Shown: positions 6,438-50,599 of the stretch, piece after piece
Numbering within the stretch: position 1 is the first letter of the stretch
Layout of the letters: each line of letters starts with the position of its first letter
Source of the DNA: an uncultured Acidimicrobiales bacterium
Lineage (GTDB): Bacteria; Actinomycetota; Acidimicrobiia; Acidimicrobiales; UBA10347
Reading direction: 5' to 3'
Length of the DNA: 54,030 bases
Assembly (NCBI GenBank): GCA_937991435.1
Contig: CALKPY010000044.1
Span: 1 to 54,030 of the forward strand
Notes under the pieces: model-generated
Seen by the model: only the letters and a program-made list of their open reading frames with translations
Databases searched by the model: none
What the model was told of the DNA's origin: nothing
Translations under genes and position numbers: made by a program

Positions 6438-6462
6438 CGGTCAGCGTTTTGTGATCACACGT

Positions 6463-7212: not shown

Positions 7213-7328
7213 GTTCCCATAATCAATTGTTCACCGGTGGCCAACGCGGACTCGTACACCAGGTCAACGGGGGATCGTTTGGCGAAAACTCATTTGCGTC
7301 TGATGGGTTCAGCGTTAAACATCGTGAG

Positions 7329-9043: not shown

Positions 9044-9051
9044 GTGGCAGC

Positions 9052-10245
9052 TCAGGCAATAAGTCCTTGCTCACGAAGCGCCGCGATTTGTTCAACGGTT
9101 CGTCCGAGATCGGTGAGAATGCCATCGTTGTCGCCACCGCGAACTGAACCCGATTCGCGAATGGTGGCCGGCGTCTTCTCAAACCGCGCTGCGGGCCGAG
9201 GCTGCTGGACCGACCCAGCCAAAGGATGCTGCCAGGTCTGCAGCGTCTGGTTGTGCACCATCTGCTGGTCAGCGATCGCCTCGTCGGCATCAAGAATAGG
9301 CCCGCAAGGGACATCAGCGGCGACAAGCCGGTCGAGAGCTTCGGCCATGGTGAGCGAAGCAAATGCGTCGGCCAGTAACACGCCGAGTGCCGCAAAGTTG
9401 GCCTCGTTGGACACGGCCATCATCGTGGCAAAGCGTTCGTCGTCGCTCCATTCAGGGTGCCCAAGTGCCTTGTACAGGGCGGTGCGCATGGGGTCGCTGG
9501 CGACGAAGTAGACGATCTTGCCGTCGCGGCAATCGGTGAGGTTGTAGACCGACGAAAGCAGGAACCCTGGCGAAACGTCATCGTCGAGGAGTGTCTTGTC
9601 CATCATCCCGTCAGGCCAGAAGAAGTACATGCACGCATCGAGCATCGGAATTTCGACGTGTTGACCCTCGCCAGTGCGTTCTCGTACAAGCAGAGCGGCC
9701 GTAATCGCCTGCGCGCTCGTGAGCGCAGTGCTCTTGTCTGCGATCAGGTTTCGAATCAGGTCCGGAAATGGAATTTCGGGATTCAATTGGCGGCTGATCA
9801 TGCCGGTCAGCCCTTGAATCACGGGGTCGAGAACCGGACGGTCTGAGTAGGGGCCGTCGGGCCCGAAACCGCTGATCGTGCAATACACGACGTTTGGGTT
9901 AACGGCCTTTATCGACTCGTAGTCGAGACCGAGTCGTGCCATTGCCCCGGGCCGAAAATTCTGCAAGATCACGTCGGCTTCTCGACACACATCGAGAGCG
10001 ATTTCTCGCCCCTCGTCACTGCCGAGATTGAGGGCGAGTGACCGCTTCCCGCGATTGTTATTCAAATAGAACGCAGACAGTCCCCCCTTGGCAAAGGCCG
10101 GGAGACGCGTGACATCGCCGGGGCCGTAGAGAGGCTCGACCTTGATGACGTCAGCGCCCTGGTCGGATAACAACATGCTGGCCAGCGGACCCGAAACGAC
10201 CTGACTGAAGTCGATGATCTTGTAGCCATCCATCGGACCCGGCAT
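9052..10245 (-). CDS. class III CoA-transferase (CaiB/BaiF family)
   Basis: The 397-residue length and the opening GYKIIDFSQVVSGPLASMLLSDQGADVIKVEP are typical of the family, as are NRGKRSLALNL, a conserved Asp in the middle (MLDACMYF) that would form the acyl-aspartate intermediate, and DADEAIADQQMVH. Such enzymes move CoA between carboxylic acids (carnitine, formyl, bile acid, 2-methyl-branched acids). The exact acid is not clear. The ATG is preceded by AAGGGGG, a strong ribosome site six bases away. It appears to be a single-gene unit. Confidence 0.88.
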   Translation of the reverse strand: MPGPMDGYKIIDFSQVVSGPLASMLLSDQGADVIKVEPLYGPGDVTRLPAFAKGGLSAFYLNNNRGKRSLALNLGSDEGREIALDVCREADVILQNFRPGAMARLGLDYESIKAVNPNVVYCTISGFGPDGPYSDRPVLDPVIQGLTGMISRQLNPEIPFPDLIRNLIADKSTALTSAQAITAALLVRERTGEGQHVEIPMLDACMYFFWPDGMMDKTLLDDDVSPGFLLSSVYNLTDCRDGKIVYFVASDPMRTALYKALGHPEWSDDERFATMMAVSNEANFAALGVLLADAFASLTMAEALDRLVAADVPCGPILDADEAIADQQMVHNQTLQTWQHPLAGSVQQPRPAARFEKTPATIRESGSVRGGDNDGILTDLGRTVEQIAALREQGLIA

Positions 10246-25707: not shown

Positions 25708-27687
25708 ATGGGAATCGTGCAACGCACCCGCGCCGCCGCGATTGAACCAGCAGAACGGCGAGATCCGCTGGTTCGAATGGCCGTGTTGTCGACCACAGCA
25801 TCTCGGATCCCGATTCTTATCGCAGCTTCTCTGTCGAGCGCTGCGGTCGTGACGCTCGTGCTGTGGGAATATTCGTCTCGCCGCACGCTGCTGTTTTGGC
25901 TGGCGTTCACACTTGCTTGCGGAGCGGTCATATCATTCGTTGCCGTCAGCCGTCACAAGAACGCATCGTTTGTCACCGCGTCGACGCTACGGAGGCAGCT
26001 GCTGTTCGGCTGCGTGATCCCCTTTGCCGTGCCTTGGGGTCTTCTCGGCCCCGCTTCGAACGCGACCGGAAACCAAGGTGTGGCCTTGTGTGTCGTTCTC
26101 GTGAGCGCTGCAGCCGTCGTCGGAGCAGTCGCTGTCGGAGGCGCGTTCTCTAGCGCGTTGATCGTCTGTGGAACATTTATCTTGCTTCCTAACCTGGTTT
26201 TCTTCTCGCTGCGCGATGGCATCACCGCTGTGCCTACGGCCACGCTCGTCTACGCGGCCCTTATTACCGGTGTCGTCGGCCGTCTAAGCCGATCGAGGTT
26301 GCTTGACCGCGAGGTGCTGTCGGTGCGCAGCAGCCACCTCGTCGATGCGGTGCAAGAAGAGAGAGCGAATCTCGCCGCGCTGAACGCTGAGCTCACCTTC
26401 CGAGCGACACACGATCAGCTCATGGGGATACCCAACCGTGAGCTGTTCGAAGCCGAACTTGAACATGCTGTGAGTTCGGCCAGACAAGAAGACGCACGCG
26501 TCGGACTGCTATTCCTTGATCTCGATCGTTTCAAATTCGTCAACGACACCCTCGGACATGCCGCCGGAGACGAACTGCTCAAGGCGATTGGTGATCGAAT
26601 TGAAAACGTGCTTCGGGCCGACGAGGCCATGGTGGCCAGGGTCGGTGGTGACGAACTCGTGGTGCTGCAGTACCGGGTCAGCCGACCTGACGAACTGCAT
26701 TACCTGGCACAGCGATTGATCACCGCTGTCAACGATTCGTTCGTGATTGATGGGGTTTCGATTTCGATCGGTGTCTCGATTGGAATGGTTGTTTCCTGGA
26801 TTGGCGATACGGCCGACGACCTCTACCGGCTCGCCGATGCAGCCCTGTACGAAGCCAAAGAGCAGGGCCGCAACTGCGTTGTCCTTGCCGACGATCAGCT
26901 GCGTTCCCAGCGTCAGGTTCGGATTTCGACCGAGCTCGCGTTGCGCAGCGCTCTTATGAACAACGAGATCGAGGCTTGGTACCAGCCGGAAGTGAATCTG
27001 ATCACAGGCGAAATTGTTGCGGCCGAAGCATTGGCGCGTTGGAAGACCGATGAAGGAGTCGCCGTTGCAAGTTCGTTCATCGGGGTAGCCCGGCGAGCTG
27101 GCCTGCTTGAGCAACTAATGTTGCGCATCGCTGACGATGTCTGGGATTGGCGCACCGAGGGTGTTGGCAATCTTCCGATTGGGATCAATGTTTCGGCGGC
27201 GCACCTTCGGTCGCTTCTTGCTCGACACGAGGCGGGTCGACGAGATCGATCCTTCTTGGGCATGCGTCTCGAAATCGCCGAGACAGACATCATTCGCGAC
27301 TTCAATGGTGCACGTCGACTACTCGAACGGGTGCGTGAGCTGGGCGCTGTGGTGTTGCTTGATGACTTTGGTACCGGCTATTCGTCACTACGCATGTTGA
27401 GCGATCTTCCTATTGACGGCATCAAGATCGATCGTTCTTACGTTGCGCGGGCAGTTGTCGACCGGCGAGTCCGAAGCCTCGTCACCAGCTTGGCGGAGTT
27501 TGGCCGCGACTCAGGAATGTTGGTTGTTGCCGAAGGTGTCGAAACCACCCAACAAGCTGAGTTCCTCGTCGACGTAGGCATTGAACGGGCGCAAGGGTTT
27601 CTTTTTGCTCCGGCATTGGAGCGGCGCGACTTTGTCGATCTTCAGGCCAAAGGCCTGATGTCAGTCGAGTTGGCCGGACGTTTCTGA
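25708..27687 (+). CDS. membrane GGDEF-EAL protein (c-di-GMP turnover)
   Basis: The 659-residue protein has about five to six hydrophobic segments in residues 28-195, a GGDEF domain (about 230-395) and an EAL domain (about 410-655). The cyclase signature is RVGGDELVVL, so the last residue of GGDEF is Leu; some GGDEL domains remain active. The EAL half has AEALARW, INVSAAHLR, EIAETDII, LLDDFGTGYSSLRM and IKIDRSYV, so the catalytic acids and lysine seem present. It could make or break c-di-GMP, or do one with the other domain regulatory. The membrane part has no known sensor name. Confidence 0.87.
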   Translation: MGIVQRTRAAAIEPAERRDPLVRMAVLSTTASRIPILIAASLSSAAVVTLVLWEYSSRRTLLFWLAFTLACGAVISFVAVSRHKNASFVTASTLRRQLLFGCVIPFAVPWGLLGPASNATGNQGVALCVVLVSAAAVVGAVAVGGAFSSALIVCGTFILLPNLVFFSLRDGITAVPTATLVYAALITGVVGRLSRSRLLDREVLSVRSSHLVDAVQEERANLAALNAELTFRATHDQLMGIPNRELFEAELEHAVSSARQEDARVGLLFLDLDRFKFVNDTLGHAAGDELLKAIGDRIENVLRADEAMVARVGGDELVVLQYRVSRPDELHYLAQRLITAVNDSFVIDGVSISIGVSIGMVVSWIGDTADDLYRLADAALYEAKEQGRNCVVLADDQLRSQRQVRISTELALRSALMNNEIEAWYQPEVNLITGEIVAAEALARWKTDEGVAVASSFIGVARRAGLLEQLMLRIADDVWDWRTEGVGNLPIGINVSAAHLRSLLARHEAGRRDRSFLGMRLEIAETDIIRDFNGARRLLERVRELGAVVLLDDFGTGYSSLRMLSDLPIDGIKIDRSYVARAVVDRRVRSLVTSLAEFGRDSGMLVVAEGVETTQQAEFLVDVGIERAQGFLFAPALERRDFVDLQAKGLMSVELAGRF

Positions 27688-36376: not shown

Positions 36377-37153
36377 TCAACGTGCTGTCATGCCATGGTC
36401 GGCGGCTATGACTGCTCCGGTGATTGCTGCAGACTCAGTGGAGCACAACCAGGCAACCGTGGTAGCGACTGACGCAGGGTCGACGAGCCGCTGGTCGATG
36501 TGGTGCTGGGCGAACTCCGACGCTGAGCTGAGGTTATAGATCGACGCGCTGTACTGAAGGAGCGCCGTATCGGTTGCCCCCGGCTGGACCACATTTGCGG
36601 TCACTCCGGTGCCTCCGAGATCTGCGGCCATTGAACGAACGAAGCTTTGGGTCGCCGCCTTGCTCGCGGCGTAGCCGGCGAGAAGTGGCGTGGCTTTGGT
36701 CGCTACTGATGACGACAGAGCAACGAATCGTGCCGATCGGGGAGTCGGCAAGCTGAGCATGGCGGGTATGGCTGCTCGCGCCAACTGGACCGTGCCGGTC
36801 AAGTTGACATCGAGCATGACCTGCCATGCCTCGTCGTTGGTCTGCCACGCGGCGTCGCCGCCGGCTATGACCCCTGCAGCGGCGACGGCTACGTCGACGC
36901 GTCCGTGGCGCTCAAGAGCAATGTTGACAGCGTGTTCGGTGGTCGCGGGGTCAGTAACGTCGCCGATGACATGTTGGGCCTGACAGTCCGCGACCACGGC
37001 TTCGAGATCTGCCGCCGACGCGAGTGGGTAGTCGAGTCGAGAGTCGTCGGAGCAGCGATCGACCAAAACGAGGTCATGGCCGGTTGTGAACAACGCACGT
37101 GCAATCGCAGCGCCAATGCCGCGTGCGGCACCGGTCACGATCGCGACGGGCAT
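36377..37153 (-). CDS. SDR oxidoreductase, mycofactocin-coupled type
   Basis: The 258-residue product has the nicotinamide site TGAARGIGAAIAR, the catalytic Ser in ALSSSVA and the YAASKAATQ motif. The insert between the first and second strand (DRCSDDSRLDYPLASAADLEAVV) matches mycofactocin-associated SDRs, which hold NAD tightly and pass electrons to mycofactocin. It overlaps the mftD stop by one base (TGATG), placing it in the mycofactocin operon. The alcohol it oxidises is unknown. Confidence 0.85.
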   Translation of the reverse strand: MPVAIVTGAARGIGAAIARALFTTGHDLVLVDRCSDDSRLDYPLASAADLEAVVADCQAQHVIGDVTDPATTEHAVNIALERHGRVDVAVAAAGVIAGGDAAWQTNDEAWQVMLDVNLTGTVQLARAAIPAMLSLPTPRSARFVALSSSVATKATPLLAGYAASKAATQSFVRSMAADLGGTGVTANVVQPGATDTALLQYSASIYNLSSASEFAQHHIDQRLVDPASVATTVAWLCSTESAAITGAVIAADHGMTAR

Positions 37154-38328
37154 CAAACTGGCGGAGCAGGCGGGCAGAACCCGGGCGGTACGACGACGTC
37201 AGCCATCGACAATTCGGCGATTGAACTCTTCCCCAGACCACGCATCGTGGCATCGATGCCGCCCCTGAGCACATCGAGCACATTCTCGACGCCGCCTTGT
37301 CCGTTGACTGCGAGACCCCACAGGTAGGCGCGCCCAATCAGTACCGCATCGGCGCCAAAAGCAAGAGCCTTGACCACGTCGCTGCCCCGTCGAATACCGC
37401 CGTCCATCAAGACCTGACATTGCCCAGCGACTGCCTCGACCACCTCAGGAAGTACCCGAATCGGGGCAGGGGAACTGTCGACATTGTTGCCGCCGTGATT
37501 CGAGACTGAGATCGCAGTGGCGCCCGCGTCGATCGCTCGACGCGCTTCGTCGCCCCGGCCGATGCCCTTTACCATGAACTGGCCGTCCCACTCCGCGGCA
37601 AGCCCGGCAATGTCTTGCCATGTCGGCGGCGGGGTTCCCATCCAAGCACCGTACGCCTCGAAGAACCCCGGGACAGGATCGCCGCCGGTCGGGAAGTTCG
37701 GCACACCAAGGTCAGGAAGCGAACGGTTCTTCGCCCAACTCATCAGCCACTTGGGTCGGGTGATGACATCGGGAGCATGTTCGATCATTGTTTTCAGGTC
37801 GATCTTTTCAGGGATCGAGGGGCTTCCCCAGTCGCGACCATGCGAGAAAGACCAGTCGAGCGTGAGTATCAGGCCGGCGGCGCCGGCAGCCTTGGCTCGT
37901 TCCATCCGAGCGCTCATCGAGTCGCGATCGCCAGCCCAGTAGATCTGGAAGAACGTCTGAGCGTTCGCCTCAATCACCTCTTCGAGCGGCTTGCTTCCAA
38001 ATGAGCTGAGCCCCATAGGCACGCCTCGAGCCGCGGTTGCTCTGCCTACGGCTACTTCGCCGTCAGGATGCACAGCTTGCACTCCGGTGGGAGAGATCAT
38101 GACAGGCATCGACGAGGGTTGTCCCATGATCGTCGTCGACATTTCGCATCCAGCCGACTGTCCTGCAGCAACCGGTCGCAAGCCCAGCTCATCAAAGGCG
38201 CTCAGGTTGTCGGCTGCAGACACTCCAGCCTCAGCGCCCGCAACGATCGCACCAAATACCGAGCGAGGCAGGCGCTTCTTCGCGCGTGCTTTGGCTACAG
38301 CGACACTTTCAAACCATTCATTTGCCAC
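37153..38328 (-). CDS. mftD: pre-mycofactocin synthase MftD (FMN enzyme)
   Basis: The 391-residue product belongs to the FMN-dependent alpha-hydroxy-acid oxidase family. It has SPTGVQAVHPDGEVAVGRA, QIYWAGDRD, the lysine in FMVKGIGRGDEARRA, the catalytic SNHGGNNVD and MDGGIRRGSDVVKALAFGAD. MftD oxidises AHDP to pre-mycofactocin, the alpha-keto amide form. The GTG at 38328 follows a TAGGCT box six bases away. The SDR gene follows with an overlap. It is divergent from mftE. Confidence 0.92.
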   Translation of the reverse strand: MANEWFESVAVAKARAKKRLPRSVFGAIVAGAEAGVSAADNLSAFDELGLRPVAAGQSAGCEMSTTIMGQPSSMPVMISPTGVQAVHPDGEVAVGRATAARGVPMGLSSFGSKPLEEVIEANAQTFFQIYWAGDRDSMSARMERAKAAGAAGLILTLDWSFSHGRDWGSPSIPEKIDLKTMIEHAPDVITRPKWLMSWAKNRSLPDLGVPNFPTGGDPVPGFFEAYGAWMGTPPPTWQDIAGLAAEWDGQFMVKGIGRGDEARRAIDAGATAISVSNHGGNNVDSSPAPIRVLPEVVEAVAGQCQVLMDGGIRRGSDVVKALAFGADAVLIGRAYLWGLAVNGQGGVENVLDVLRGGIDATMRGLGKSSIAELSMADVVVPPGFCPPAPPV

Positions 38329-38334
38329 GGGCAG

Positions 38335-38340
38335 AGCCTA
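38335..38340 (-). promoter_or_regulatory. -10 box of a leaderless transcript (mftD)
   Basis: TAGGCT on the minus strand, six bases ahead of GTG 38328. It drives mftD-SDR and possibly the MFS gene, away from mftE. Confidence 0.55.
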
Positions 38341-38408
38341 CGGCTGACCTCGGGCCAGCCCGCCACAGGCAGGTCGGCGGTGTGCAAATGTCTGTGGTCT
38401 GCGGCGGC

Positions 38409-38414
38409 TAGCGT
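38409..38414 (+). promoter_or_regulatory. -10 box of a leaderless transcript (mftE)
   Basis: TAGCGT lies seven bases ahead of GTG 38422. The 93-base gap between mftD and mftE holds both boxes, divergent. Confidence 0.55.
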
Positions 38415-38421
38415 TTGCTCT

Positions 38422-39102
38422 GTGAGCATAGAACCGCCGCTGCTTGCCAACATGGTGTCGCCGCAGGTCGCGCCAGCGTTGCTCGTTGTGCCGCTTGGTT
38501 CGACCGAGCAACACGGGCCGCACTTGCCCCTGAGTACCGACACGGTTATCGCAGAGGAGCTTGCGGCTCGGGCTGCGTCGGCGGTTGCTGGTGTCACGGT
38601 TGCTCCCGTCTTGGCCTTTGGAGCGAGCGGAGAGCACCGCGGCTTCGCCGGCACCTTGTCGATAGGCACCGAGGCGTTGCGCTCGGTGATTGTTGAACTT
38701 GGCCGGTCTGCTGATCACTTCTCGGGGGTGGTCTTCGTGAACGGCCACGGAGGAAATCACACTGCTGTGACACAGGCCATCGCCGTGCTTCAGTCAGAAC
38801 AACGCAACGTGCATGCGTGGTGGCCGCGTGTTGTCGACGGTGACGCGCATGCCGGCAGAACAGAAACCTCGCTACTGATGTTCTTGCGACCTCATCAGGT
38901 GCGAACGGAACTCGCCGAGCCAGGCGACACGCGGCCACTCGGACAGATCGAGGCGCGGCTGCGCGAAGGGGGAGTGGCGTCGGTCAGTGCCAATGGCGTG
39001 CTCGGCGACCCAGCTGGCGCATCTGTCGCTCATGGCGAGCAGCTAATGCACGATCTTGTCGACGACTTGGTGCGGCTATTGAACAATCTCGTCGAGCTCT
39101 GA
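38422..39102 (+). CDS. mftE: mycofactocin peptidase MftE (creatininase family)
   Basis: The 226-residue product fits creatininase-like peptidases: LVVPLGSTEQHGPHLPLSTDT with Glu and His metal ligands, ASGEHRGFAGTLSIG, VFVNGHGGN, and DAHAGRTETS. MftE releases the C-terminal Val-Tyr dipeptide product from the modified MftA. GTG at 38422 is taken as the start since TAGCGT lies seven bases ahead; the open frame is much longer but without homology. It is alone on the plus strand between mftC and mftD, not in line with them as in mycobacteria. Confidence 0.9.
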   Translation: MSIEPPLLANMVSPQVAPALLVVPLGSTEQHGPHLPLSTDTVIAEELAARAASAVAGVTVAPVLAFGASGEHRGFAGTLSIGTEALRSVIVELGRSADHFSGVVFVNGHGGNHTAVTQAIAVLQSEQRNVHAWWPRVVDGDAHAGRTETSLLMFLRPHQVRTELAEPGDTRPLGQIEARLREGGVASVSANGVLGDPAGASVAHGEQLMHDLVDDLVRLLNNLVEL

Positions 39103-39124
39103 GTTCCAGAGGTCGATCAGGCGA

Positions 39125-40255
39125 TCACTGTTTGACGGTAATGCGTACGGGGCGAGAGTGGTCCTGCGAAGGAGCCGGGACGTTGCCGCTTGCCGCGGCT
39201 ACAGCCTCGTCTGCGTGACCAAGCACGCAGTCTGGATCGGGACCATCAAGCGGGATACCAGTGAAGAACTTTGCTGCCATGCACCCGCCTCCACATTCGT
39301 CGTACGAGCCGCACGATGCGCATGCTCCGGCGCTATCCGGTTCACGCAGCGACGTGAACAACTCGGACTCGCGCCACACGTGGGCGAACCCGCCGTCGTC
39401 GCGAACGTTGCCCGCTTTGAACTGGTCATGGATCACAAACGGACACGCGTACACGTCGCCGATTGGATCGATCAAGCACACGATTCGGCCAGCGCCACAC
39501 AGGTTGAGACCCGGAAGCGATTCGCCTGTTGACGAACCGAGCGCGTTGAGATGAAAGAACGAATCACCGGTGAGCACGTCGGGGTGATCGAGGATCCAAC
39601 GGAAGATCTGTTGCTGCTGCGGGTTGGTGAGCCGTAGATCTTGGTAACTGTCGACCCCGCGACCTGACGGGCGGAGCCTGGTTACTCGGAGTTGCGCCCC
39701 GTACTCATCAGCCATGCGCTTGTAGTCGTCAAGCTGGTCCACATTGTGGCGAGTGGCCACGATGCTGATTTTGAATTCGCCAAAGTTGCTCGCCGCAAGA
39801 TTGTCCATCGCCGCGCGGGCGGCCTTCCAGCTACCCGGACCTCGCACAGCGTCGTTCGTTGATTCGTCGAATCCGTCGAGGCTGATTTGTATGTCTAGTA
39901 GATCAGTAGCAGCAAGACGCTCCGCTGCCGGCTTGTCGATGTAGTACCCATTGGTCGAAAACTTGACACCCACATTTCGGCTGGTTGCATGATCGATGAT
40001 CTCAAAGAAGTCCTTACGAATCATTGGCTCGCCGCCGCCGACATTGATGTAGAAGACACTCAGATCTGCCAGCTGATCTACGACACTGATCGCTTCAGCC
40101 GTTGATAGCTCCTTTGGGTCGCGTCTGCCAGAAGAACTCAGGCAATGAACACACGCGAGGTTGCATGCATAGGTGAGTTCCCATGTGAGACAGATCGGGG
40201 CGTCGAGTCCGCCCTTGAGCTGTTCGACGAGAGGCGGCACGTTGGTGGTGGTCAT
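39125..40255 (-). CDS. mftC: mycofactocin radical SAM maturase MftC
   Basis: The 376-residue product has the radical SAM cluster CNLACVHC (Cys31, 35, 38) and a C-terminal SPASM region rich in Cys (CGAGRIVC, YACPF, CASCGSYDECGGGC, DPDCVLG) for auxiliary Fe-S clusters. MftC oxidatively decarboxylates the last Tyr of MftA and then cross-links it to Val. The start ATG overlaps the mftB stop (ATGA). It converges with mftE, 22 bases apart. Confidence 0.95.
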   Translation of the reverse strand: MTTTNVPPLVEQLKGGLDAPICLTWELTYACNLACVHCLSSSGRRDPKELSTAEAISVVDQLADLSVFYINVGGGEPMIRKDFFEIIDHATSRNVGVKFSTNGYYIDKPAAERLAATDLLDIQISLDGFDESTNDAVRGPGSWKAARAAMDNLAASNFGEFKISIVATRHNVDQLDDYKRMADEYGAQLRVTRLRPSGRGVDSYQDLRLTNPQQQQIFRWILDHPDVLTGDSFFHLNALGSSTGESLPGLNLCGAGRIVCLIDPIGDVYACPFVIHDQFKAGNVRDDGGFAHVWRESELFTSLREPDSAGACASCGSYDECGGGCMAAKFFTGIPLDGPDPDCVLGHADEAVAAASGNVPAPSQDHSRPVRITVKQ

Positions 40256-40602
40256 GTGAAGACTCCTGTCGGTGAGGCCAGTTCGATCACACCCGCTTCG
40301 GCGAGCGATGCGAGGGCGAGCTGGTGGCTTCGTCGTGTGCGTTGGTCAGCTGGCTGGATAATCGCTTCGATTGCGCTATCGGCCGAGCCATGCTCGACCA
40401 ACGCTTCGACAAGGTCGACCAGCGCTGTCGACTTGAGGAACACAAGCCTGCGCGTGTCGAAGTGATACGCCAACGCGCCAAACGGCTCGGGTCGAAGTCC
40501 GATTTTCGCACTGCGTTTCCAGGGCTTCGTGCTGTCGAAACGCGATGGATCGTCAGAACAGCCGCCCGATGCGGTCGAGTTGACGGAGGGAACAACTGCC
40601 AA
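40252..40602 (-). CDS. mftB: mycofactocin peptide chaperone MftB
   Basis: The 116-residue product has the MftB core LRPEPFGALAYHFDTRRLVFLKS, then a winged-helix-like tail ending ALASLAEAGVIEL. MftB is a RiPP recognition element that binds MftA and hands it to MftC. The only plausible start is TTG 40602, two bases after the mftA stop, giving a slightly long N-terminus; no ATG or GTG is in frame before the core. ATGA overlap with mftC. Confidence 0.88.
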   Translation of the reverse strand: MAVVPSVNSTASGGCSDDPSRFDSTKPWKRSAKIGLRPEPFGALAYHFDTRRLVFLKSTALVDLVEALVEHGSADSAIEAIIQPADQRTRRSHQLALASLAEAGVIELASPTGVFT

Positions 40603-40604
40603 GT

Positions 40605-40748
40605 TCAGTACACACCGCACATGCCGTCGATGGAGATCTCCTCGACAAGCAGCTCTTCGATCACAAGATTTTGCTCGGTCGCCGACGTCGCATCGGCGGT
40701 CTCGGTGGACTCGCGGATCTCGGTTGGGTCGGTGTTTTCTGGTTCCAT
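40605..40748 (-). CDS. mftA: mycofactocin precursor peptide MftA
   Basis: The 47-residue peptide starts EPENTDPTEIRES and ends IDGMCGVY, with the exact Val-Tyr end that is decarboxylated and cross-linked into the redox core. LVIEELLVEEISIDGM before it is the conserved leader part. It is the substrate of MftB/MftC/MftE. The ATG at 40748 follows GTGGGGGCG, a usable ribosome site. The last residues and the place directly upstream of mftB leave no doubt. Confidence 0.96.
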   Translation of the reverse strand: MEPENTDPTEIRESTETADATSATEQNLVIEELLVEEISIDGMCGVY

Positions 40749-40885
40749 GACGCCCCCACGGTGGCTTTGTCGGCTCTGTGTTGTGTAACGCGGTCTGGGT
40801 CGTTTGATTCCAGCGGCGCAGCAGGGCCAACGTTACCGCGGAGACGATCTGGCAACGTCAACGTGAGATCGCTACGTTTGTCTCG
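40749..40885. other. divergent mftA/mftF intergenic region
   Basis: This 137-base gap should hold the promoters for mftABC (minus) and mftF (plus). A short inverted pair GTAACG / CGTTAC lies about 50 bases apart; whether it is an operator is unclear. No mftR-type TetR gene is in the window. The mftF -10 box (40873-40878) is listed apart; I could not settle the mftA -10. Confidence 0.4.
40873..40878 (+). promoter_or_regulatory. -10 box of a leaderless transcript (mftF)
   Basis: TACGTT lies seven bases ahead of GTG 40886, which favours that codon over the ATG at 40889. Confidence 0.5.
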
Positions 40886-42298
40886 GTGATGCACGGGTGC
40901 CGCTTCCGCTTGGACTCTGGCGTGCGTCGACTCACAAATGGCATGACCCTCATCGGCGGCTCGCCAGTGCGGGTGGTCCGATTGTCTGCCGCCGGCGCCG
41001 CTCTACTCGATCGGTTATGCGTCGGAGATGACCTCACCCCAGTAGCGGAACTGAAAGATGGCGAACAGGTCCTCGTGAATCGACTTCTGGCGGCAGGTGT
41101 CATTCATCCATGCGCGCTTCCCGGCGGATTTGACACGTGCGGGGTTGTCGTGCCGGTGCTAGACGATCACGAAGGTTTGGCACAGCTGCTCGAATCGCTT
41201 CGGACATTTTCTGATATGGAAATTGCAGTTGTCGATGATGGGTCTCACAATGCTGACGCCGTAGCAGCGATCGTCTCGTTTTGGTCAGCGACTCTGCTTC
41301 GGCTCGACGTGAACAGCGGGCCAGCGACAGCCCGCAATGTCGGTTGGAAGCATCTCGAAACGCTTGGCCTCGACCGCGTTGTATTTATTGATGCTGATGT
41401 CTTGGTAAACAGCGAACCTTTGGCGAAGTTGGCTGGATTGCTGAATGATCCACGGGTGGGTGCTGCCGCTCCGCGTGTGAGAAGCGCCACTGGGCAAGGA
41501 CCCGTTGCTGCCTATGAGCGTGTCGCTAGTGCGTTGGACCTCGGCAGCGAGTCGGCCAATGTGCAGCCTGGCTCACGAGTGTCGTATGTGCCGTCGGCAT
41601 GTCTCGCTATGGAAATCCCTGCTTTGCGTGAGATCGGAGGATTCGACGAGGAAATGCGCGTCGGCGAAGACGTCGACCTTGTTTGGCGGCTGCTGCGAGA
41701 CACCGACTGGTCAGTCCGCTTCCTCGGTGAGACATCGGTCCTGCACCGGCCACGCGGATCAATCAGAGCCTTCGCGAAACAACGATTCAGCTATGGCCGC
41801 AGCGCTGCGGACCTAGGCAAGCGGCATCCCGCGGCCGTCATGGCGCTCGAGATATCGCCATTGAACCTGGCAGTGTTTGGTGCACCGATTGTTCTTGGGC
41901 GCCGCGGGTTCTGGATTTCCGCAGCTGCAGCACTCAAGCAATTCTGGTCGACACGGTCGTCCCTAGCCGCATTCGTCGACGCGCCCGATCCCGAGGCGCT
42001 CAGACTCGTCGCTCGTGGCATTTCGGGCACATGTCGATGGGTTCTTGATGCCGTAGCCAGGGCGTGGTTGTTACCTCTGTTGGTGGTTGGCGCCCAAGGT
42101 CGCGGACGATGGCTGCTTGCGGCATCTCTCCTGGGCCGACCTATCCGACGGTGGCTCGGTTCCGAGCGGACACACGACGTTGGTCGTTTCGTGGCGTTGA
42201 GCTTGGTCGACGATGTCGCCTACCTTTTTGGAACACTGTCGGGGGCGATAGAGCGCCGTACCACTCGACCGCTGCGAGTCCGTCTGCGCCGTACGTAA
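40886..42298 (+). CDS. mftF: mycofactocin glycosyltransferase MftF
   Basis: The 470-residue product has the small N-terminal domain typical of MftF (LTNGMTLIGGSPVRVVRLS) and then a GT2 domain: CGVVVPVLDDHEGLAQLL, IAVVDDGSHN, NSGPATARNVG, VFIDADVLV and GFDEEMRVGEDVDLVWRL. MftF adds a beta-1,4-glucose chain to pre-mycofactocin. The C-terminal third has hydrophobic stretches. GTG 40886 or ATG 40889. It is divergent from mftABC and faces the HD-GYP genes. Confidence 0.9.
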   Translation: MMHGCRFRLDSGVRRLTNGMTLIGGSPVRVVRLSAAGAALLDRLCVGDDLTPVAELKDGEQVLVNRLLAAGVIHPCALPGGFDTCGVVVPVLDDHEGLAQLLESLRTFSDMEIAVVDDGSHNADAVAAIVSFWSATLLRLDVNSGPATARNVGWKHLETLGLDRVVFIDADVLVNSEPLAKLAGLLNDPRVGAAAPRVRSATGQGPVAAYERVASALDLGSESANVQPGSRVSYVPSACLAMEIPALREIGGFDEEMRVGEDVDLVWRLLRDTDWSVRFLGETSVLHRPRGSIRAFAKQRFSYGRSAADLGKRHPAAVMALEISPLNLAVFGAPIVLGRRGFWISAAAALKQFWSTRSSLAAFVDAPDPEALRLVARGISGTCRWVLDAVARAWLLPLLVVGAQGRGRWLLAASLLGRPIRRWLGSERTHDVGRFVALSLVDDVAYLFGTLSGAIERRTTRPLRVRLRRT

Positions 42299-42406
42299 CT
42301 GCAGGATTTTGACCGAAATAGATCAGCTGGCCCGTTCTGGGTATTGAGGGGACGCAGATGCGATTAAAGCGCACGGGTTGTGGCTGCCTGTATACGCTCT
42401 GGGGTC

Positions 42407-45400
42407 GTGTCCGGACCAACACAAAACTACGACGAGCTCCCGGGTTCTCGTTGGGTCGATCGCGTCTGGACCGCCCGTGTTCTGCGGTTCGTGATCTGGG
42501 CCATTCCCATTGCCGGGTCGTATCTTGCCATCTGGTGGATGTCGGCCAATTTGCCGCCTCGACGGTTGGGCGTGCATCTTGGCTTATGGTGGGTTTTTGC
42601 TGCCCTGGTGGGGGCGTTTACGATCTGGATGCTCGATCGAGGAATGCGCCGATTTTTGCCAGTCGTGGCGTTGTTGCGTATGTCGATGGTGTTCCCAGAC
42701 AAGGCGCCGCCTCGGTACCGGGCAGCGCTTCGGACCGGAAGCGGTCGGGCGCTCGAGCGTCGCGTGGTGGCTGTCGCTGCCGCCGAGCCGAACAAGGTCG
42801 GCACGCAACAATCGTTGTTGTTACTTGACCTTGCCGCCGCGATTACTCGACACGACCGCTTGACGCGTGGTCATTGCGAGCGGGTACGAGCCTATAGCGA
42901 CCTCATCGCGCAAGAAATGGGCCTTGACGAACACGAGACCGGGCTGTTGCGATGGTCGGCACTGCTCCATGATGTAGGCAAACTCGATGTTCCCGCCTCG
43001 ATTCTCAACAAGCCTGGTCGACCTGACGAGGACGAGTGGAAGATCTTGTCGGGCCACCCGGCAGCGTCGTCTCGGTATCTCGCGCCGGTTGCTACATGGC
43101 TTGAAGGCTGGCACGTAGCTGCCGCACAGCATCACGAACGGTGGGACGGCGGCGGATATCCCGCAGGTCTCGCCGCTGAACAGATCCACATGGCCGGTCG
43201 GATCGTTGCGGTCGCTGATGCTTACGACACAATGGTTTCAGTTCGCTCCTACAAGAAGGCGATGACCGCACAGGCTGCCCGTACGGAGCTTGTTCGATGT
43301 GCAGGTACTCAATTTGACCCGCGTGTCGTTCGGGCCTTTTTGAATGTGAGTATCGGTCGCGTCCGTCGTGCTGCCGGCGGACTGGCGTGGCTTGGGAACT
43401 TTGGTCAGGTTCTAGGCTCGGGAACGGTCTCGCCGGTGGTGTCCTCGGCGCCGAATGTGATCGCTTCTGGCGTGCTTGTTGCAAGTGCACTCACTTTTGC
43501 GTTGGCGCCTCCAGAGGTGCGTGACACCGGCCCGGAAAACGCTTCGGTCGTCATGACCCAGCCAGAAGACGACCAGGCGGAGGTTGAGCCGGACCCCACC
43601 GCTGGGATCGAACCCACACCGACTGTGATCCCTTCTGCGCCGCCTGACCAGTTTGGAGCGCCGGAGTCCGTTGGCCTCATCGAAGTTGTGCCCGATCGGG
43701 CCGAAGCCACAATCACGTCAACGGTTCCGGAGCCATCGCCGTCAGCGCAAGCCACCGAATCGCCGATTGAACCTGACGTGTTGCCTTCGGTGACCCCGCC
43801 CCCTGAAGAGTCGGCCCTGCCGGGACCGTCTGCGTCTCCCGATGCTGATGGTGCTGATCAGGAAAGTTTGACTGCAACAGTTGAACCCACACCTGACGGG
43901 TCGACCCCAACCCCAACGCCGACCCCACCCGGGGCTACTCCAACTGCACCGCCTGATCTGTCGGCCGCACTCGATCCGACGGCGACTCCGACTGAGCTTG
44001 AGCCCCTCAGCTCGGTTGAGCCGACAGCGACATCTGCTCAAGCTGAATCGACATCTACCGTCGCGGCAGTGCCGACGGCTTCAGAGCCGACACCCACAGC
44101 GAGCGAAACTGCAGACCTGGCGACGCCAACGGAACTCGCGTCCACGACGACATTTCCGCAGACGAGTGCGACCATCACAGCATCGATTGAGCCGACGGCG
44201 CTACCGAGCCCAACCTCTGAAGTAGCCCCGTCGACCCCAACAGCGGTACCTCAGGCGACCGTCGCCCTACCGACATCGACGTCTTCGCCTACGCCGACGA
44301 AGGTGGTGGTTTCGCCTACGCCGACGTCCACGCCTACAGTGATTGCGACTGGTACGCCAAGTCCCACGGCTTCAGTGACGCCTACGAGACCAGCCATTCA
44401 AGTCGCCACCCCGACGGCGACTGCCACCCCGACCGCTGCTGTTGCGACCGCTTCGCCCACCGCGGCTGCCGCTGCGACCCAAGTACAAGAACCGACATCC
44501 ACGAGTTTCGCATCGGTCACGCCGACAGCTGCTGCTACGTCGACACCGTCTGTTTCTGCGACCACACTCGCAACAGCGAGTCCAACCCCCATGGCTACCG
44601 CTACGACGGCCCCAGCGAGTTCGGTGACTCCCACAAGTCTCCCGACATCAACGGCGCAGTCCACAGCCACAGCCACTGCCACAGCCACACCGTCACCGAC
44701 ATCGTCCGCGTCACAATCATCGACAGTTACCCCCACGGTGACGCCCTGGGAGGTTTGCGAACCGGACTTCTGGAACCCCGCCACGGGTTCCTTCCAAGCG
44801 GGTAACTGCGGCACCGTGACCCCGACAGCGACCGTAACCATGACCCCGACGGTGACTCCGACGTCGACTGTGGTGCCGACGGTGACTCCGACGTCGACTG
44901 TGGTGCCGACGGTGACTCCGACGTCGACTGTGGTGCCGACGGTGACGCCTACGTCGACTGTGGCGCCGACGGTGACGCCGACTTCTACGTCGACGGTGAC
45001 GCCGACTTCTACGTCGACGGTGACGCCGACTTCTACGTCGACGGTGACGCCGACTTCTACGTCGACTGTGACGCCGACTTCTACGTCGACTGTGACGCCG
45101 ACTTCTACGTCGACGGTGACGCCGACTTCTACGTCGACGGTGACGCCGACTCCTACGTCGACCGCAGTCGAGGGCGCTTGTCAGGTGTCGTATCGCCTTG
45201 ATGAGACGATTCGTGTGTGGTACTTCTTGTCGGGCTACGAAGATGCTCTTGCCGAATACGGACCCTATGTCGCCCGACTAATCGGGCGAGTTGATGTCGA
45301 TGGCCCGAGCAATCACTGGGATACAGCAGAGGTGTCCTTTGACTTCATCTACGAGAATGAAGACGGTACGCAGACAACGATCGCCGTGCCGCGCCGATAT

Positions 45401-45613
45401 ATCGCACCGCAAATCGCTGGTAGCGGTGGAACCGACGTGGCCAGCTACTCCCTTCTTCGTGCTGCGGCCGAGTATCTGTCAATAGAAGGTGTTCCCGCGA
45501 ATCCTTCTGATGCACAACTTGTATTTCGTTATCACAACGATGTGTGCTCGAACGATGACGGGTCAGGGATTACAGCATCATTGACCTGGCCCATCACGTT
45601 CGCTTCTATATGA
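42407..45613 (+). CDS. HD-GYP membrane protein with long Thr/Pro stalk and C-terminal domain (first copy)
   Basis: The 1068-residue product has two membrane spans (about 28-46 and 59-76), an HD-GYP domain (HD in LLHDVGKLDVP, about 188; GYP in HHERWDGGGYPAG, about 250), a third span (about 349-365), a Thr/Pro/Ser-rich stalk of about 560 residues and a closing domain of about 145 residues (VEGACQVSYRL to LTWPITF). HD-GYP enzymes break c-di-GMP. The span order puts the HD-GYP part inside and the stalk outside, so the end domain may sense or bind something outside. GTG 42407 starts the conserved QNYDE region; GTG 42380 is an option. It overlaps the second copy by four bases. Confidence 0.83.
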   Translation: MSGPTQNYDELPGSRWVDRVWTARVLRFVIWAIPIAGSYLAIWWMSANLPPRRLGVHLGLWWVFAALVGAFTIWMLDRGMRRFLPVVALLRMSMVFPDKAPPRYRAALRTGSGRALERRVVAVAAAEPNKVGTQQSLLLLDLAAAITRHDRLTRGHCERVRAYSDLIAQEMGLDEHETGLLRWSALLHDVGKLDVPASILNKPGRPDEDEWKILSGHPAASSRYLAPVATWLEGWHVAAAQHHERWDGGGYPAGLAAEQIHMAGRIVAVADAYDTMVSVRSYKKAMTAQAARTELVRCAGTQFDPRVVRAFLNVSIGRVRRAAGGLAWLGNFGQVLGSGTVSPVVSSAPNVIASGVLVASALTFALAPPEVRDTGPENASVVMTQPEDDQAEVEPDPTAGIEPTPTVIPSAPPDQFGAPESVGLIEVVPDRAEATITSTVPEPSPSAQATESPIEPDVLPSVTPPPEESALPGPSASPDADGADQESLTATVEPTPDGSTPTPTPTPPGATPTAPPDLSAALDPTATPTELEPLSSVEPTATSAQAESTSTVAAVPTASEPTPTASETADLATPTELASTTTFPQTSATITASIEPTALPSPTSEVAPSTPTAVPQATVALPTSTSSPTPTKVVVSPTPTSTPTVIATGTPSPTASVTPTRPAIQVATPTATATPTAAVATASPTAAAAATQVQEPTSTSFASVTPTAAATSTPSVSATTLATASPTPMATATTAPASSVTPTSLPTSTAQSTATATATATPSPTSSASQSSTVTPTVTPWEVCEPDFWNPATGSFQAGNCGTVTPTATVTMTPTVTPTSTVVPTVTPTSTVVPTVTPTSTVVPTVTPTSTVAPTVTPTSTSTVTPTSTSTVTPTSTSTVTPTSTSTVTPTSTSTVTPTSTSTVTPTSTSTVTPTPTSTAVEGACQVSYRLDETIRVWYFLSGYEDALAEYGPYVARLIGRVDVDGPSNHWDTAEVSFDFIYENEDGTQTTIAVPRRYIAPQIAGSGGTDVASYSLLRAAAEYLSIEGVPANPSDAQLVFRYHNDVCSNDDGSGITASLTWPITFASI
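44851..44970 (+). repeat. 30-bp tandem repeat in the HD-GYP stalk
   Basis: Four units of 30 bases (ggtgactccgacgtcgactg start) encode VTPTSTVVPT. The fourth unit has three changed bases. Frame is kept. Confidence 0.92.
44971..45162 (+). repeat. 24-bp tandem repeat in the HD-GYP stalk
   Basis: Eight units of 24 bases (ggtgacgccgacttctacgt start) encode VTPTSTST, following the 30-bp array without a gap. Units 5 and 6 carry tgtg in place of ggtg and the last has tcc for ttc. Near identity suggests recent slippage. Confidence 0.93.
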
Positions 45614-48063
45614 CGAGCAGCCATCACATGTCGACGACGAATCGCCAGGGGCCGACCCAGAACTACGACGAGCCTGACGAACACAGGTGGGTTGAGCGTG
45701 TCTGGACGGCGAGAGCAATCCGGTTTGCAGTCTGGGCCGTTCCTGTAGTGGCTTCGTACCTAGCCGTGCGTTGGATTGCGCTCAATTTCCCGCCGACGCG
45801 CATCGGCGTTCACGTCGGTCTGTGGTGGGTCTTGGCCTTGGTCGTAGGTGCGGGAACCATTGCCGTATCGGATCGGCTAATGCGCCGGCTTCTGCCTGTC
45901 GCAGCGCTATTGCGATTGTCTCTACTATTCCCCGACAAGGCTCCAGCGCGATATCGCGCTGCCCTCCGTACCGGGAACGCTCGCTCGCTCGAGGGGCGCC
46001 TCGTCTCGATTGCTTCGGCAGCGCCGGGACGAGTGGGAGCGCAACAGACTCTCTTGCTCTTTGACCTCGCGTCAGCAATCAGTCGCCATGACCGCGCAAC
46101 ACGAGGTCACTGCGACCGTGTGCGGGCCTATTCCGATCTGATTGCGAGCGAAATGGGGATTGGTCGACGAGACCGAGACTTGTTGCGGTGGGCAGCTCTT
46201 CTTCATGACATCGGGAAGCTCGACGTTCCGCCCGAAATTCTGAACAAGAATGGACGTCCAGACGAACGAGAATGGGCGGTAGTTTCAGGACATCCAGACG
46301 CCTCGGCGAGGTACCTCGCCCCGCTCGCAAACTGGCTTGACGGTTGGCAGCATGCCGCGTCGCAACACCACGAGCGCTGGGACGGTGCCGGATATCCAAA
46401 CGGGTTGAGCGGCGAACGAATTCACCTGGCCGGTCGCATCGTCGCTGTCGCTGACGCGTATGACACGATGGTTTCGATCCGCGCGTACAAGAAGCCAATG
46501 GGTGTGGTTGCCGCCCGGACTGAGTTGTCTCGGGCAGCAGGGACCCATTTCGATCCTCGAGTCGTTCGGGCTTTTCTGAATGTGAGCATTGGACGAGTCC
46601 GGGGTGCCGCAGGTGGTGTCGGGTGGTTGGGTAATCTTGGGCAAGCAATCGGGTCAGGCTCCATCTCGCCGGCTTTGGTCGCGGGTCCGTCGGCGCTTGC
46701 CTCAGGCGCTCTTGCCGCTGCGGCTGCGACCCTGGTTCTTGTGCCTGGCGGGTTGGCGGGTTTCGACCATCACGAAGTAACCGTCGCGACCGACGCTGAC
46801 GACGTGGCTAGCCGCACAGCAACGAGCGGTTCGCCGTCATCGGTGCCCGTCACTGGAACTGTTCCGGGCGATAAGTTTGAACTTGACGTTTTGGGTTCGT
46901 CAATGCGTATTTCGAAGATCGAGTCGACCCCAGTAGCTGGTTCGCCCGATGGAGCGTCTGATGTCATCGCGGAGTCGGCGACCGACACAGCGACGGCGAC
47001 GGCGACGCCTACGACCGAGCCCGCCGACTCGGTCAGCTGGCTCGCCGTTGTTGCTTCGGTACCTTCTGTGCAGGTCCAAACGACGCCGACCCCAATGTCG
47101 ACACAAGCGGTTCAAGCACCCGTGTCGGCTTCGCCGACCGTGCGATCGTGGGTCCCGGCTGACGCTCCGTCGCCGACTGCAACGTCAACCGTTTCGCCGT
47201 CAGTCTCGGCAATATCAACAGCCGACCCTGCTCCGACGTCTACCCCGTCAGTGAGTGCCTCTGCGGTGCCAACAGCTTCAGCCCAGATCCCGCAATCTCC
47301 AGTGCCGACTGCGACCACTGTGCTGAGCAATCCGGCATCTACGCCTACCTCAACGGGTGTCGAAGCTATCTCCACAGTTGAGCCCCGGCCGACGTTTACG
47401 CTCGCAGGTATTGCGACGCCGACTGCGAGACCGACTCAAACTTCAAGCATAAACATCGTCAATCCTCAGCCGGGCGTTGCATTGACGCCATGGGTATCAC
47501 CGTCGCCGGGCCCGTCTTCTTCTCAGGTGCCGACTGCGACTTCGACACCTCGTCCCGGTTCCATCACAGTGACGTCGACTGCTACACCCACGGTGACGTC
47601 GACAGCGAATCCGCCACCGACACCGACACCGACGATGACGATTGCGCCCGCGCCGACGGTGACGCCCGCTCCGACGGTGACGCCGACTCCGACGGTGACG
47701 CCGACACCGACGCCGATACCCGCCAATCAGCCGCCATGGATTCGCCCCAAAGAGTTTCTTGACATTGGAATCAACCCGATGCAGTTCTTCGTCGTCGCGG
47801 GTGATGATGACGGCGATGGAGTCCATCTCACCTACAACGTTGTCGCGGGTGCGTTCTCTGAAACCAAGTTCGAGGCGGTCACACTTGCCGGCCCAGATGG
47901 ACAGACGTGGCGTTTTTCTGGATTTGGAATCGAAGTCGGCGATGACTTCTTGATCGAGATCCGAGCGGTTGATGACGGCGACCCGGCACTTACGGCCGAA
48001 GTTCGAGTTTCTGGCACAGCGTGTCGCTTTGTCGGCTGGGACTGTCCTCTTATCGCCTCATAG
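45610..48063 (+). CDS. HD-GYP membrane protein with Thr/Pro stalk (second copy)
   Basis: The 817-residue product is a paralogue of the gene before it: shared QGPTQNYDE start, two spans, HD-GYP domain with LLHDIGKLDVPP (about 199) and HHERWDGAGYPNG (about 262), and a third span (about 364-380). The stalk is shorter, about 310 residues. The C-terminal 110 residues (PWIRPKEFLDIGINP onward, with VVAGDDDGDGVHLTYNV and IRAVDDGDPALTAEV) read like a cadherin/Ig-like fold and do not match the first copy. ATGA overlap ties it to the first gene. The ATG at 45610 or 45628 could be used. Confidence 0.82.
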   Translation: MTSSHHMSTTNRQGPTQNYDEPDEHRWVERVWTARAIRFAVWAVPVVASYLAVRWIALNFPPTRIGVHVGLWWVLALVVGAGTIAVSDRLMRRLLPVAALLRLSLLFPDKAPARYRAALRTGNARSLEGRLVSIASAAPGRVGAQQTLLLFDLASAISRHDRATRGHCDRVRAYSDLIASEMGIGRRDRDLLRWAALLHDIGKLDVPPEILNKNGRPDEREWAVVSGHPDASARYLAPLANWLDGWQHAASQHHERWDGAGYPNGLSGERIHLAGRIVAVADAYDTMVSIRAYKKPMGVVAARTELSRAAGTHFDPRVVRAFLNVSIGRVRGAAGGVGWLGNLGQAIGSGSISPALVAGPSALASGALAAAAATLVLVPGGLAGFDHHEVTVATDADDVASRTATSGSPSSVPVTGTVPGDKFELDVLGSSMRISKIESTPVAGSPDGASDVIAESATDTATATATPTTEPADSVSWLAVVASVPSVQVQTTPTPMSTQAVQAPVSASPTVRSWVPADAPSPTATSTVSPSVSAISTADPAPTSTPSVSASAVPTASAQIPQSPVPTATTVLSNPASTPTSTGVEAISTVEPRPTFTLAGIATPTARPTQTSSINIVNPQPGVALTPWVSPSPGPSSSQVPTATSTPRPGSITVTSTATPTVTSTANPPPTPTPTMTIAPAPTVTPAPTVTPTPTVTPTPTPIPANQPPWIRPKEFLDIGINPMQFFVVAGDDDGDGVHLTYNVVAGAFSETKFEAVTLAGPDGQTWRFSGFGIEVGDDFLIEIRAVDDGDPALTAEVRVSGTACRFVGWDCPLIAS

Positions 48064-48710: not shown

Positions 48711-49535
48711 TTAATCGGCGAGCTGAGCGAATGCAGCAGGCACCTGAGTCGGTCCGCTGAGCGCAGCCCAGCGTGCACCAACGGTAGAAGCAAGCTCTTG
48801 TGCGTCTGCGCAGTCGTCCGCAGGCGCCAAAATGCCAAGCTGTTCCAGTGCTGCTGCTGATTTCTCCGGGGGTCCACCAGCGGTAGGGCGGCAATCGCTC
48901 AACAAGATGGTGCGATGACGGCTTGCGCTGCTTCGGGCAAGTTGATCAGAAGCGGTACGCAACGCAAGCGACAGGTCAGTTGGTCCAAAGCCGCGAACTC
49001 GCAGAACGTCGGTGATTACTTCTTCTACTGGGCGAGCCTGACCGATTCCTTTGATCACGATGGCCTTGTCATTGAACGCGACCACCGCATAGTCAGATTC
49101 TGTGCGTTGCGCTGCTGCTGCGACGGCGACGGCCGCGGTTGCCAAACGATCCCCGGTCATCGAGCCGCTGCGGTCGATCAACAACACAACGGCAGCGTCG
49201 GGGCGAGTCCACCCGTGCATGCGAAGGTCGTCAACGTTGGCCACGGTCTGTGACGCCTGCGCGGCTACCAAGGCGTCGAGTGAACCGTCAATATCGATAT
49301 CGCCACCCTGATCGCTCATTGGTACCGATCGCATGCGCCCTACGCCGCGCTGCTCACTCGTCGCCGAAGCCGCCAAGTCGACAACAACTCTTGCAGCTAG
49401 CTGCTGCACGAGTGCCCGCAGCCGCTCATCGGTAGCTGAGGCCATGTCGGCCAACGTGCTGAGAGCGATGTCTTGGTCTTCGGTCAACGCGTGCTCGACG
49501 GCGTGGACGTCGAGTTCGCCCAGCTCGGGAGACAT
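48711..49535 (-). CDS. VWA domain protein of the MoxR-partner type
   Basis: The 274-residue product has a von Willebrand A domain with a complete metal site: LLIDRSGSMTGDRL, the Thr in GFGPTDLSLAL and the Asp in ILLSDCRPT. The part before it (SPELGELD and LADMASATDERLRALVQQLAARVV) is a helical region typical of partners of MoxR ATPases and of ChlD/CoxE relatives. ATG 49535 is the first standard start after the moxR stop, but conserved-looking residues (RRDLARNEGFDD) extend upstream, so the real start may be a TTG or rare codon towards 49748. Same operon as moxR. Confidence 0.78.
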   Translation of the reverse strand: MSPELGELDVHAVEHALTEDQDIALSTLADMASATDERLRALVQQLAARVVVDLAASATSEQRGVGRMRSVPMSDQGGDIDIDGSLDALVAAQASQTVANVDDLRMHGWTRPDAAVVLLIDRSGSMTGDRLATAAVAVAAAAQRTESDYAVVAFNDKAIVIKGIGQARPVEEVITDVLRVRGFGPTDLSLALRTASDQLARSSASRHRTILLSDCRPTAGGPPEKSAAALEQLGILAPADDCADAQELASTVGARWAALSGPTQVPAAFAQLAD

Positions 49536-49663
49536 GTCGTCGAACCCTTCGTTGCGAGCGAGATCTCGGCGTGAGGTGGTTCGACGTTGTTCTTCGTCGA
49601 GCGCTGAACGTGCCTGATCGCCCTCAAGGGTTCGGGAAGGTTCGAGCAGGCCCCCGCCGGGGC

Positions 49664-50599
49664 TCAGACTTTTCCCAGATCGTCGCTCTCGTCGGGGTTG
49701 GTTGCGTGCCAGATTTCGGTGACAATTTCTTCGGCGGTACGACCACAAGACTCGTGTAGCCGAATGCGCCCGCTTAGAGCGGCGCAGGCGGAGTCAATTC
49801 CGCACTGGTCGCTCACCTCGACGTGACCCCGTAGCTGTGCCAATTGAGCGGCGAGTAGAACCAAGTCGATAGCGCCCCGTACCGAGGACCCGATTCGTAT
49901 GTCGTGATGGTCTCTCGTACGTCGCACACAGTCGACAGCGCGCACACCGAGAGCGCCCGAAGCGTCGGGCGCCTCGCGGCGCACGATTGCTGCTTCTTCG
50001 TCGGCGCTCTGGTACCCGACCGCGACTCGATTCACGCGGTCATAGATCGCGCCGGCGATGCGGGCGGTGCCGACTGCATCGAACGGATTCATTGCGGCAA
50101 CCAGGCGGAAGTGTGGGTGAGCCTCGATGCGACCCAAGCGGGGAACCGTGAGCTCGCCCTCACTCATCACCGTCACCAGCAGGTTCAGGGTTTCCTCGGG
50201 CACGCGATTGATTTCTTCGACGTAGAGCAGGCCTCCGTCGCGCAATGCGGCGATCAGCGGCCCGTCGATGAAGATGTCGGTGGCGTAGCCGCGAGCCAAC
50301 ACCTGAGCCGGGTCAAAGTGACCTGCGAGTCGAGCAGGCGTAAGTTCGGCATTGCCCTCGACGAAAACGAGATCAAGTCCCGAATGCGCTGCGACGGAGC
50401 GCAACAGTGTCGACTTGCCGGTGCCCGGCGGGCCTTCGAGCAGAATATGGCGAGCTGAGTTCAAGGCGGCGACCACGAGTTCGATCTCGCGTTTACGGCC
50501 GACGACGTCGCTGGTTGCTTCCGCAACGAGTTGCGCTCCGAAGCGCGGTAATTCGGTCAAGTCAGTGGTTGTACATGACCATGCCGCGGATGTTGTCAC
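49664..50599 (-). CDS. MoxR-family AAA+ ATPase
   Basis: The 311-residue product has Walker A LEGPPGTGKSTLLR, Walker B LLYVEEINRVPEE, sensor AAMNPFDAVG and DRVNR. MoxR ATPases act with VWA proteins as chaperones that insert metals or cofactors or help assemble enzymes, named after methanol dehydrogenase activation. The GTG at 50599 would overlap adh by 38 bases; TTG 50560, just past the adh stop, is also plausible. Sits between adh and the VWA gene. Confidence 0.86.
   Translation of the reverse strand: MTTSAAWSCTTTDLTELPRFGAQLVAEATSDVVGRKREIELVVAALNSARHILLEGPPGTGKSTLLRSVAAHSGLDLVFVEGNAELTPARLAGHFDPAQVLARGYATDIFIDGPLIAALRDGGLLYVEEINRVPEETLNLLVTVMSEGELTVPRLGRIEAHPHFRLVAAMNPFDAVGTARIAGAIYDRVNRVAVGYQSADEEAAIVRREAPDASGALGVRAVDCVRRTRDHHDIRIGSSVRGAIDLVLLAAQLAQLRGHVEVSDQCGIDSACAALSGRIRLHESCGRTAEEIVTEIWHATNPDESDDLGKV

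Follow-up and report, generated by a model that had tools for sequence, protein, structure and literature searches.

In cyclic dinucleotide phosphodiesterases, the sensors are normally located N-terminal to the enzyme and are mostly directed at small molecules. Likewise, the known HD-GYP phosphodiesterases (PmGH, V-cGAP3, PA4781) carry their regulatory domains in front of the catalytic domain, which needs a cytosolic location to reach its substrate. A connection to the cell surface has been described for DvhD, a membrane-bound HD-GYP receptor of c-di-GMP which is tied to surface adhesion by an inside-out, periplasmic output (PMC13090378). Its sensor is an N-terminal periplasmic dCache domain and its HD-GYP domain is catalytically dead, with the HD and HH ligands lost. 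Sensors at the C-terminal end are known from other proteins. RsgI of Clostridium thermocellum features a cytosolic N-terminal output domain, a transmembrane (TM) span, a wall-crossing region and divergent C-terminal sensors, and occurs in multiple paralogues (PMC12203970). PknB/PASTA-type and other Ser/Thr kinases comprise a conserved cytosolic catalytic core, a TM span and a variable C-terminal extracellular sensor (PMC4601284).

A stretch of 54,030 nucleotides from an uncultured Acidimicrobiales bacterium (here termed the window) contains two tandem genes, P1 (42407-45613) and P2 (45610-48063), which combine an HD-GYP domain with a long C-terminal tail. Both are encoded on the plus strand and overlap by an ATGA, with the P1 stop codon ending at 45613 and the P2 start codon ATG at 45610. 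The frame of P1 is open from a GTG at 42380, giving a length of up to 1077 amino acids, and the GTG at 42407 (V-S-G-P-T-Q-N-Y) agrees with homologues opening with SGPTQNY; P2 comprises 817 amino acids. Both open frames match HD_5 (PF13487) with E-values of 3.5e-31 (P1) and 5.3e-32 (P2), and their scores of 108.7 and 111.3 bits lie far above the curated cut-off of 27.2. The order of parts is the same in both proteins: TM1, a short loop, TM2, a juxtamembrane segment, the HD-GYP domain, TM3, a stalk and an end domain. TM1 and TM2 of P1 (42488-42547 and 42581-42634; hydropathy 1.67 and 1.94) correspond to helices of the P2 core model, that of TM1 with high confidence, and those of P2 (45724-45783 and 45817-45870) were recognized by hydropathy and in the model itself. 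The adjoining juxtamembrane segment (42635-42757 in P1, 45871-45993 in P2) bears the family signature RRxLPxxALLxxSxxFPDxAPxR and is strongly conserved in two alignments of the family. It is followed by the HD-GYP domain (42839-43327 in P1, 46072-46563 in P2), which in the P2 core model is confidently predicted beside the two TM helices (pLDDT mostly 93-98). The nearest solved folds are those of HD-GYP enzymes or receptors, with DvhD among the structural neighbours. TM3 is located at 43454-43510 in P1 (hydropathy 1.81) and at 46693-46761 in P2, where it is indicated by a hydropathy of 1.87 and a position conserved in the family, at low model confidence.

The P1/P2 family shares the fold, the HHExxDGxGYP motif and the metal ligands of the known HD-GYP phosphodiesterases. 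The earlier note would have been contradicted by incomplete active residues, and alignment revealed them to be essentially complete: H189, H221, D222, H250, H276, H277 and D305 (PmGH numbering) as well as the GYP motif are invariant in 103 of 103 family members, P1 and P2 included, and K225 is kept in 102. Thus, seven of the eight known metal ligands of PmGH are present. The missing one is the third-metal ligand Glu185 of PmGH, replaced by L in P1 and A in P2, and the six commonest letters at this position in the family (L, R, M, A, K, G) include neither E nor D. The residue at the Glu185 position was described to divide HD-GYP proteins into tri- and binuclear groups (PMC4159591); P1 and P2 lack the E or D of the trinuclear one and are therefore expected to be dinuclear. 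Dinuclear HD-GYP proteins are thought to carry out the first hydrolysis step only (PMC8177086). Among solved chains, the best sequence match is V-cGAP3 (5z7c; E 8.3e-60), a 3'3'-cGAMP enzyme, followed by PmGH (4mcw). Because of this nearness and the absent third-metal Glu, 3'3'-cGAMP or pGpG remain candidate substrates. Nevertheless, the source genome contains 23 GGDEF and 16 EAL matches and hence a messenger network, which makes c-di-GMP the more likely predicted substrate of P1 and P2. A GGDEF-EAL protein is also encoded within the window (25708-27687).

The stalks are rich in Thr, Pro and Ser (together 57% in P1 and 51% in P2) and nearly devoid of Lys and Arg. They occupy 43511-45160 in P1 and 46762-47718 in P2, the former featuring tandem repeats with units of 30 bp and 24 bp (44846-45162). 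Their lengths of 550 and 319 residues are in line with the divergence (300-560 residues) noticed before, and the duplication of anchor and HD-GYP domain is borne out by cores that are 69% identical. The end domains were likewise rightly called unrelated, as the ectodomains give no BLAST match to each other after masking of low complexity. Neither end domain matched a Pfam profile. The P1 end domain (45161-45610; 150 amino acids) is an orphan with an all-beta prediction of low to moderate confidence; since its AlphaFold model from a two-row alignment reached a pLDDT of 62 and Foldseek returned nothing below E 0.001, it was given no fold name. The only match to it in a search across the order is a decayed copy within the source genome (L207:1-655, G000 contig C108), which contains a TAG stop, is apparently frameshifted and adjoins another surface-like fragment. 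The P2 end domain (47719-48060; 114 amino acids) is of a DPDGD type that recurs on contig C110 and in a genome of the same genus, and may be Ig/cadherin-like: its profile weakly matches the cadherin-type arrays of family member L156 (E 2e-4), and an hhalign comparison with one small Ig set was not significant. Glycosylation of the stalks by a PMT glycosyltransferase was considered and set aside, as it was indicated by a single weak, partial match.

The earlier note had proposed to search related genomes for the same architecture, and it does recur there. With the N-terminal core as query, 103 distinct members were gathered; the family is present in 30 of 59 relatives and includes all five HD_5 proteins of the source genome. 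Wider searches were conducted with the N-terminal anchor only (TM1, TM2 and juxtamembrane segment, without HD-GYP domain and tail) and revealed the family at each taxonomic level covered: the order (85 of 397 genomes), the class (13 of 100 genomes drawn) and the phylum (19 of 297 genomes drawn, other classes included), with up to 11 paralogues per genome. In the scan of named genomes, the first six loci among the matches listed are full members, belonging to Acidimicrobiales, Thermoleophilia and one Dormiibacterota assembly (titles as deposited), and the remaining matches are generic HD-GYP proteins which were used as controls. Complete 3' ends are available for 91 members, and 82 of these feature a TM-like span after the HD-GYP domain and at least 100 further residues, the median remainder after the domain being 387 residues. 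Such a span was found in none of 88 control HD-GYP proteins of many phyla, whose median remainder is 19.5 residues; these controls were taken from pattern matches and relatives and do not represent a random census. The layout of P1 and P2 is thus not a product of chance, as it recurs in about 100 homologues against none of 88 other HD-GYP proteins.

In 80 tails, the most frequent Pfam modules are Big_9 (27), Cadherin_5 (22) and LTD (8), accompanied by rarer CBM_6 and pentapeptide (3 each) as well as Lectin_C and fn3 (2 each), and longer tails also carry cadherin arrays, FG-GAP, PKD and CshA repeats. Across the family, the surface modules comprise bacterial Ig, cadherin, lamin-tail, CBM6/35, C-type lectin, fn3, FG-GAP and pentapeptide types. 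At two loci (L040:5176-7644 and L167:15419-17782) the tail consists of a pentapeptide-repeat domain, an odd module for an outside location. Taken together, the family is large, appears not to have been described before, and combines a retained inner enzyme with an exchangeable outer domain.

The divergence of tails beside a conserved core can be followed in tandem pairs, where the identities of core and tail amount to 97 versus 40% (L059), 84 versus 39% (L068) and 81 versus 39% (L195), with tail identities ranging from 38 to 40% across the three pairs. In the L059 pair (5855-9946), at least 240 codons of the HD domain are identical at the DNA level including silent sites, while the tails are saturated; in this draft assembly, either gene conversion or an assembly artefact accounts for the identity. 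The clade of the window contains three end types, one in P2, the C110 copy and the same-genus copy, another in P1 and a third in C17, so that ends must have been replaced. P1 and P2 themselves are probably tandem paralogues that are not each other's closest relatives, P1 being 76% identical to the C110 copy. A tree with both as sisters is marginally excluded by the AU test (p = 0.038), but not by KH and SH. Saturated silent sites mark the duplication as old and reveal purifying selection on the core; a recent P1-P2 duplication is unlikely on the grounds of tree and silent sites alike. Directly upstream of the pair lies a mycofactocin cluster (36377-42298; by NCBIfam a mycofactocin-coupled SDR, MftD, MftE, MftC, MftB and MftF). 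Since no neighbouring gene recurred at more than four of about 96 family loci, this proximity is regarded as positional and a functional link was dropped. Downstream, a minus-strand gene pair (48711-50599) encodes a MoxR/GvpN-like AAA ATPase together with a protein that is, on a weak match, probably of VWA type.

According to the earlier note, stalk and end domain are located outside the cell, and as far as the sequence permits a judgement, this is not refuted. Given a cytosolic HD-GYP domain, TM3 places the tail outside. In three members (L065:5662-8208, L038:7428-10094, L166:5147-8809), which may be bifunctional receptor enzymes, an intact GGDEF domain precedes the two-span hairpin; N-terminus and HD-GYP domain therefore lie on the same, cytosolic side with an even number of spans between them. 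Moreover, the median net charge around TM3 changes from +2 before to -5.5 after the span, 92 of 102 members are more positive ahead of the span than behind it, and the tails that follow are acidic and poor in Lys and Arg. Together with the surface modules, these indirect indications support an extracellular stalk and end domain. The opposite, that the tails are cytosolic or represent neutral, functionless C-terminal accretions of low complexity, could be suspected from the Ala-rich, poorly modelled TM3 and the repetitive stalk. It is extremely improbable in view of the charge asymmetry, the surface-type folds of homologous tails and the folded ends, which about 100 members have repeatedly kept.

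On this basis, P1 and P2 are proposed to be receptor-like HD-GYP phosphodiesterases of Actinomycetota with the N-terminus inside, in which the two-span hairpin and the conserved juxtamembrane segment lead to a cytosolic, probably dinuclear enzyme. TM3 would then lead outwards, the wall would be spanned by a linker of Thr/Pro or similar type, and the exchangeable C-terminal module might bind matrix, glycan, other cells or the wall. Engaging, clustering or pulling the outer module could shift the position or dimer state of TM3 and thereby set how fast the enzyme degrades its cyclic dinucleotide, probably c-di-GMP. Such control of the phosphodiesterase from outside by an exchangeable surface module is the explanation towards which we lean, with some reserve. 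It is weakened most by the stalk: being long, disordered and flexible, this would hardly transmit a local conformational change induced by a ligand and would be better suited to passing on force or clustering, so that the mechanism would require tension, clustering or proteolysis. The low model confidence of TM3 and the lack of conserved neighbours indicating a pathway also speak against it. The outer module might instead serve placement: by tethering a constitutively active phosphodiesterase to contact sites, poles or septa, it would confine breakdown to these places, and no conformational signal would cross the membrane. The long and flexible stalk with its varying length, the adhesion-like tails and the up to 11 paralogues per genome would suit such a role. 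This is rather unlikely, though worth serious consideration, since the conservation between TM2 and HD-GYP domain exceeds the need of a plain tether and the diversity of end modules suggests several ligands instead of one location. The signal might also run from inside to outside, with cytosolic c-di-GMP on the HD-GYP domain setting exposure, clustering or release of the adhesive module. DvhD offers a precedent (PMC13090378) and the tails resemble adhesins, but DvhD has lost its HD and HH ligands, a loss not found in P1 and P2, and the invariance of the ligands in 103 of 103 members indicates that selection evidently maintains catalysis; this direction is accordingly held to be distinctly improbable. 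Still less probable is a proteolytic relay, in which ligand or force would cause cutting of the ectodomain and intramembrane proteolysis would remove or free the HD-GYP part. The order of parts is that of RsgI (PMC12203970) and the disordered stalk is suited to shear or cleavage; however, a periplasmic autocleavage domain is not recognisable beside TM3, and with three spans instead of one, a cut in TM3 would leave the enzyme in the membrane.

Like RsgI, the P1/P2 family occurs in several paralogues whose cytosolic and membrane core is conserved while the extracellular modules at the C-terminus diverge. This is an analogy only, as RsgI has an anti-sigma output and one span, the P1/P2 family an HD-GYP enzyme and three spans, and the two are not homologous. 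Neither an RsgI-type anti-sigma domain nor a neighbouring SigI was found, the N-terminus of P1 and P2 being TM1-TM2-HD-GYP and no neighbour being conserved. The PknB/PASTA-type kinases differ by their single span and a kinase in place of the phosphodiesterase, and are not homologous either. Among the HD-GYP proteins compared, the family stands apart by a TM span and tail after the domain. A description of HD-GYP proteins with C-terminal extracellular domains was not found in the open-access literature searched, a scope outside which most subscription journals lie, and a review on c-di-GMP sensing, in the passages considered, covers sensors generally without this layout. The earlier claim that no family of this layout had been described consequently holds for HD-GYP proteins within that literature and not for the general arrangement, known from RsgI and Ser/Thr kinases with C-terminal sensors. 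By analogy, the new element appears to be the HD-GYP output on an RsgI- or kinase-like layout.

In its widest form, the proposal is a class of one-protein receptors that is widespread in Actinomycetota and has not been described. Their exchangeable C-terminal modules, adhesive or glycan-binding, would act from outside and directly set the breakdown of cyclic dinucleotides in the cytosol, in GGDEF-bearing members both synthesis and breakdown, and recombination of tandem copies would reassort cores and tails. As a whole, this is put forward tentatively, as possible and somewhat short of probable. If true, cell contact or matrix binding would be coupled directly to second-messenger breakdown. To our knowledge, cyclic dinucleotide signalling has hardly been studied in this part of the phylum. 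The P1/P2 family may open experimental access to the sensing of attachment in these bacteria, and its modular build with swappable ends could serve to probe outside-in signalling.
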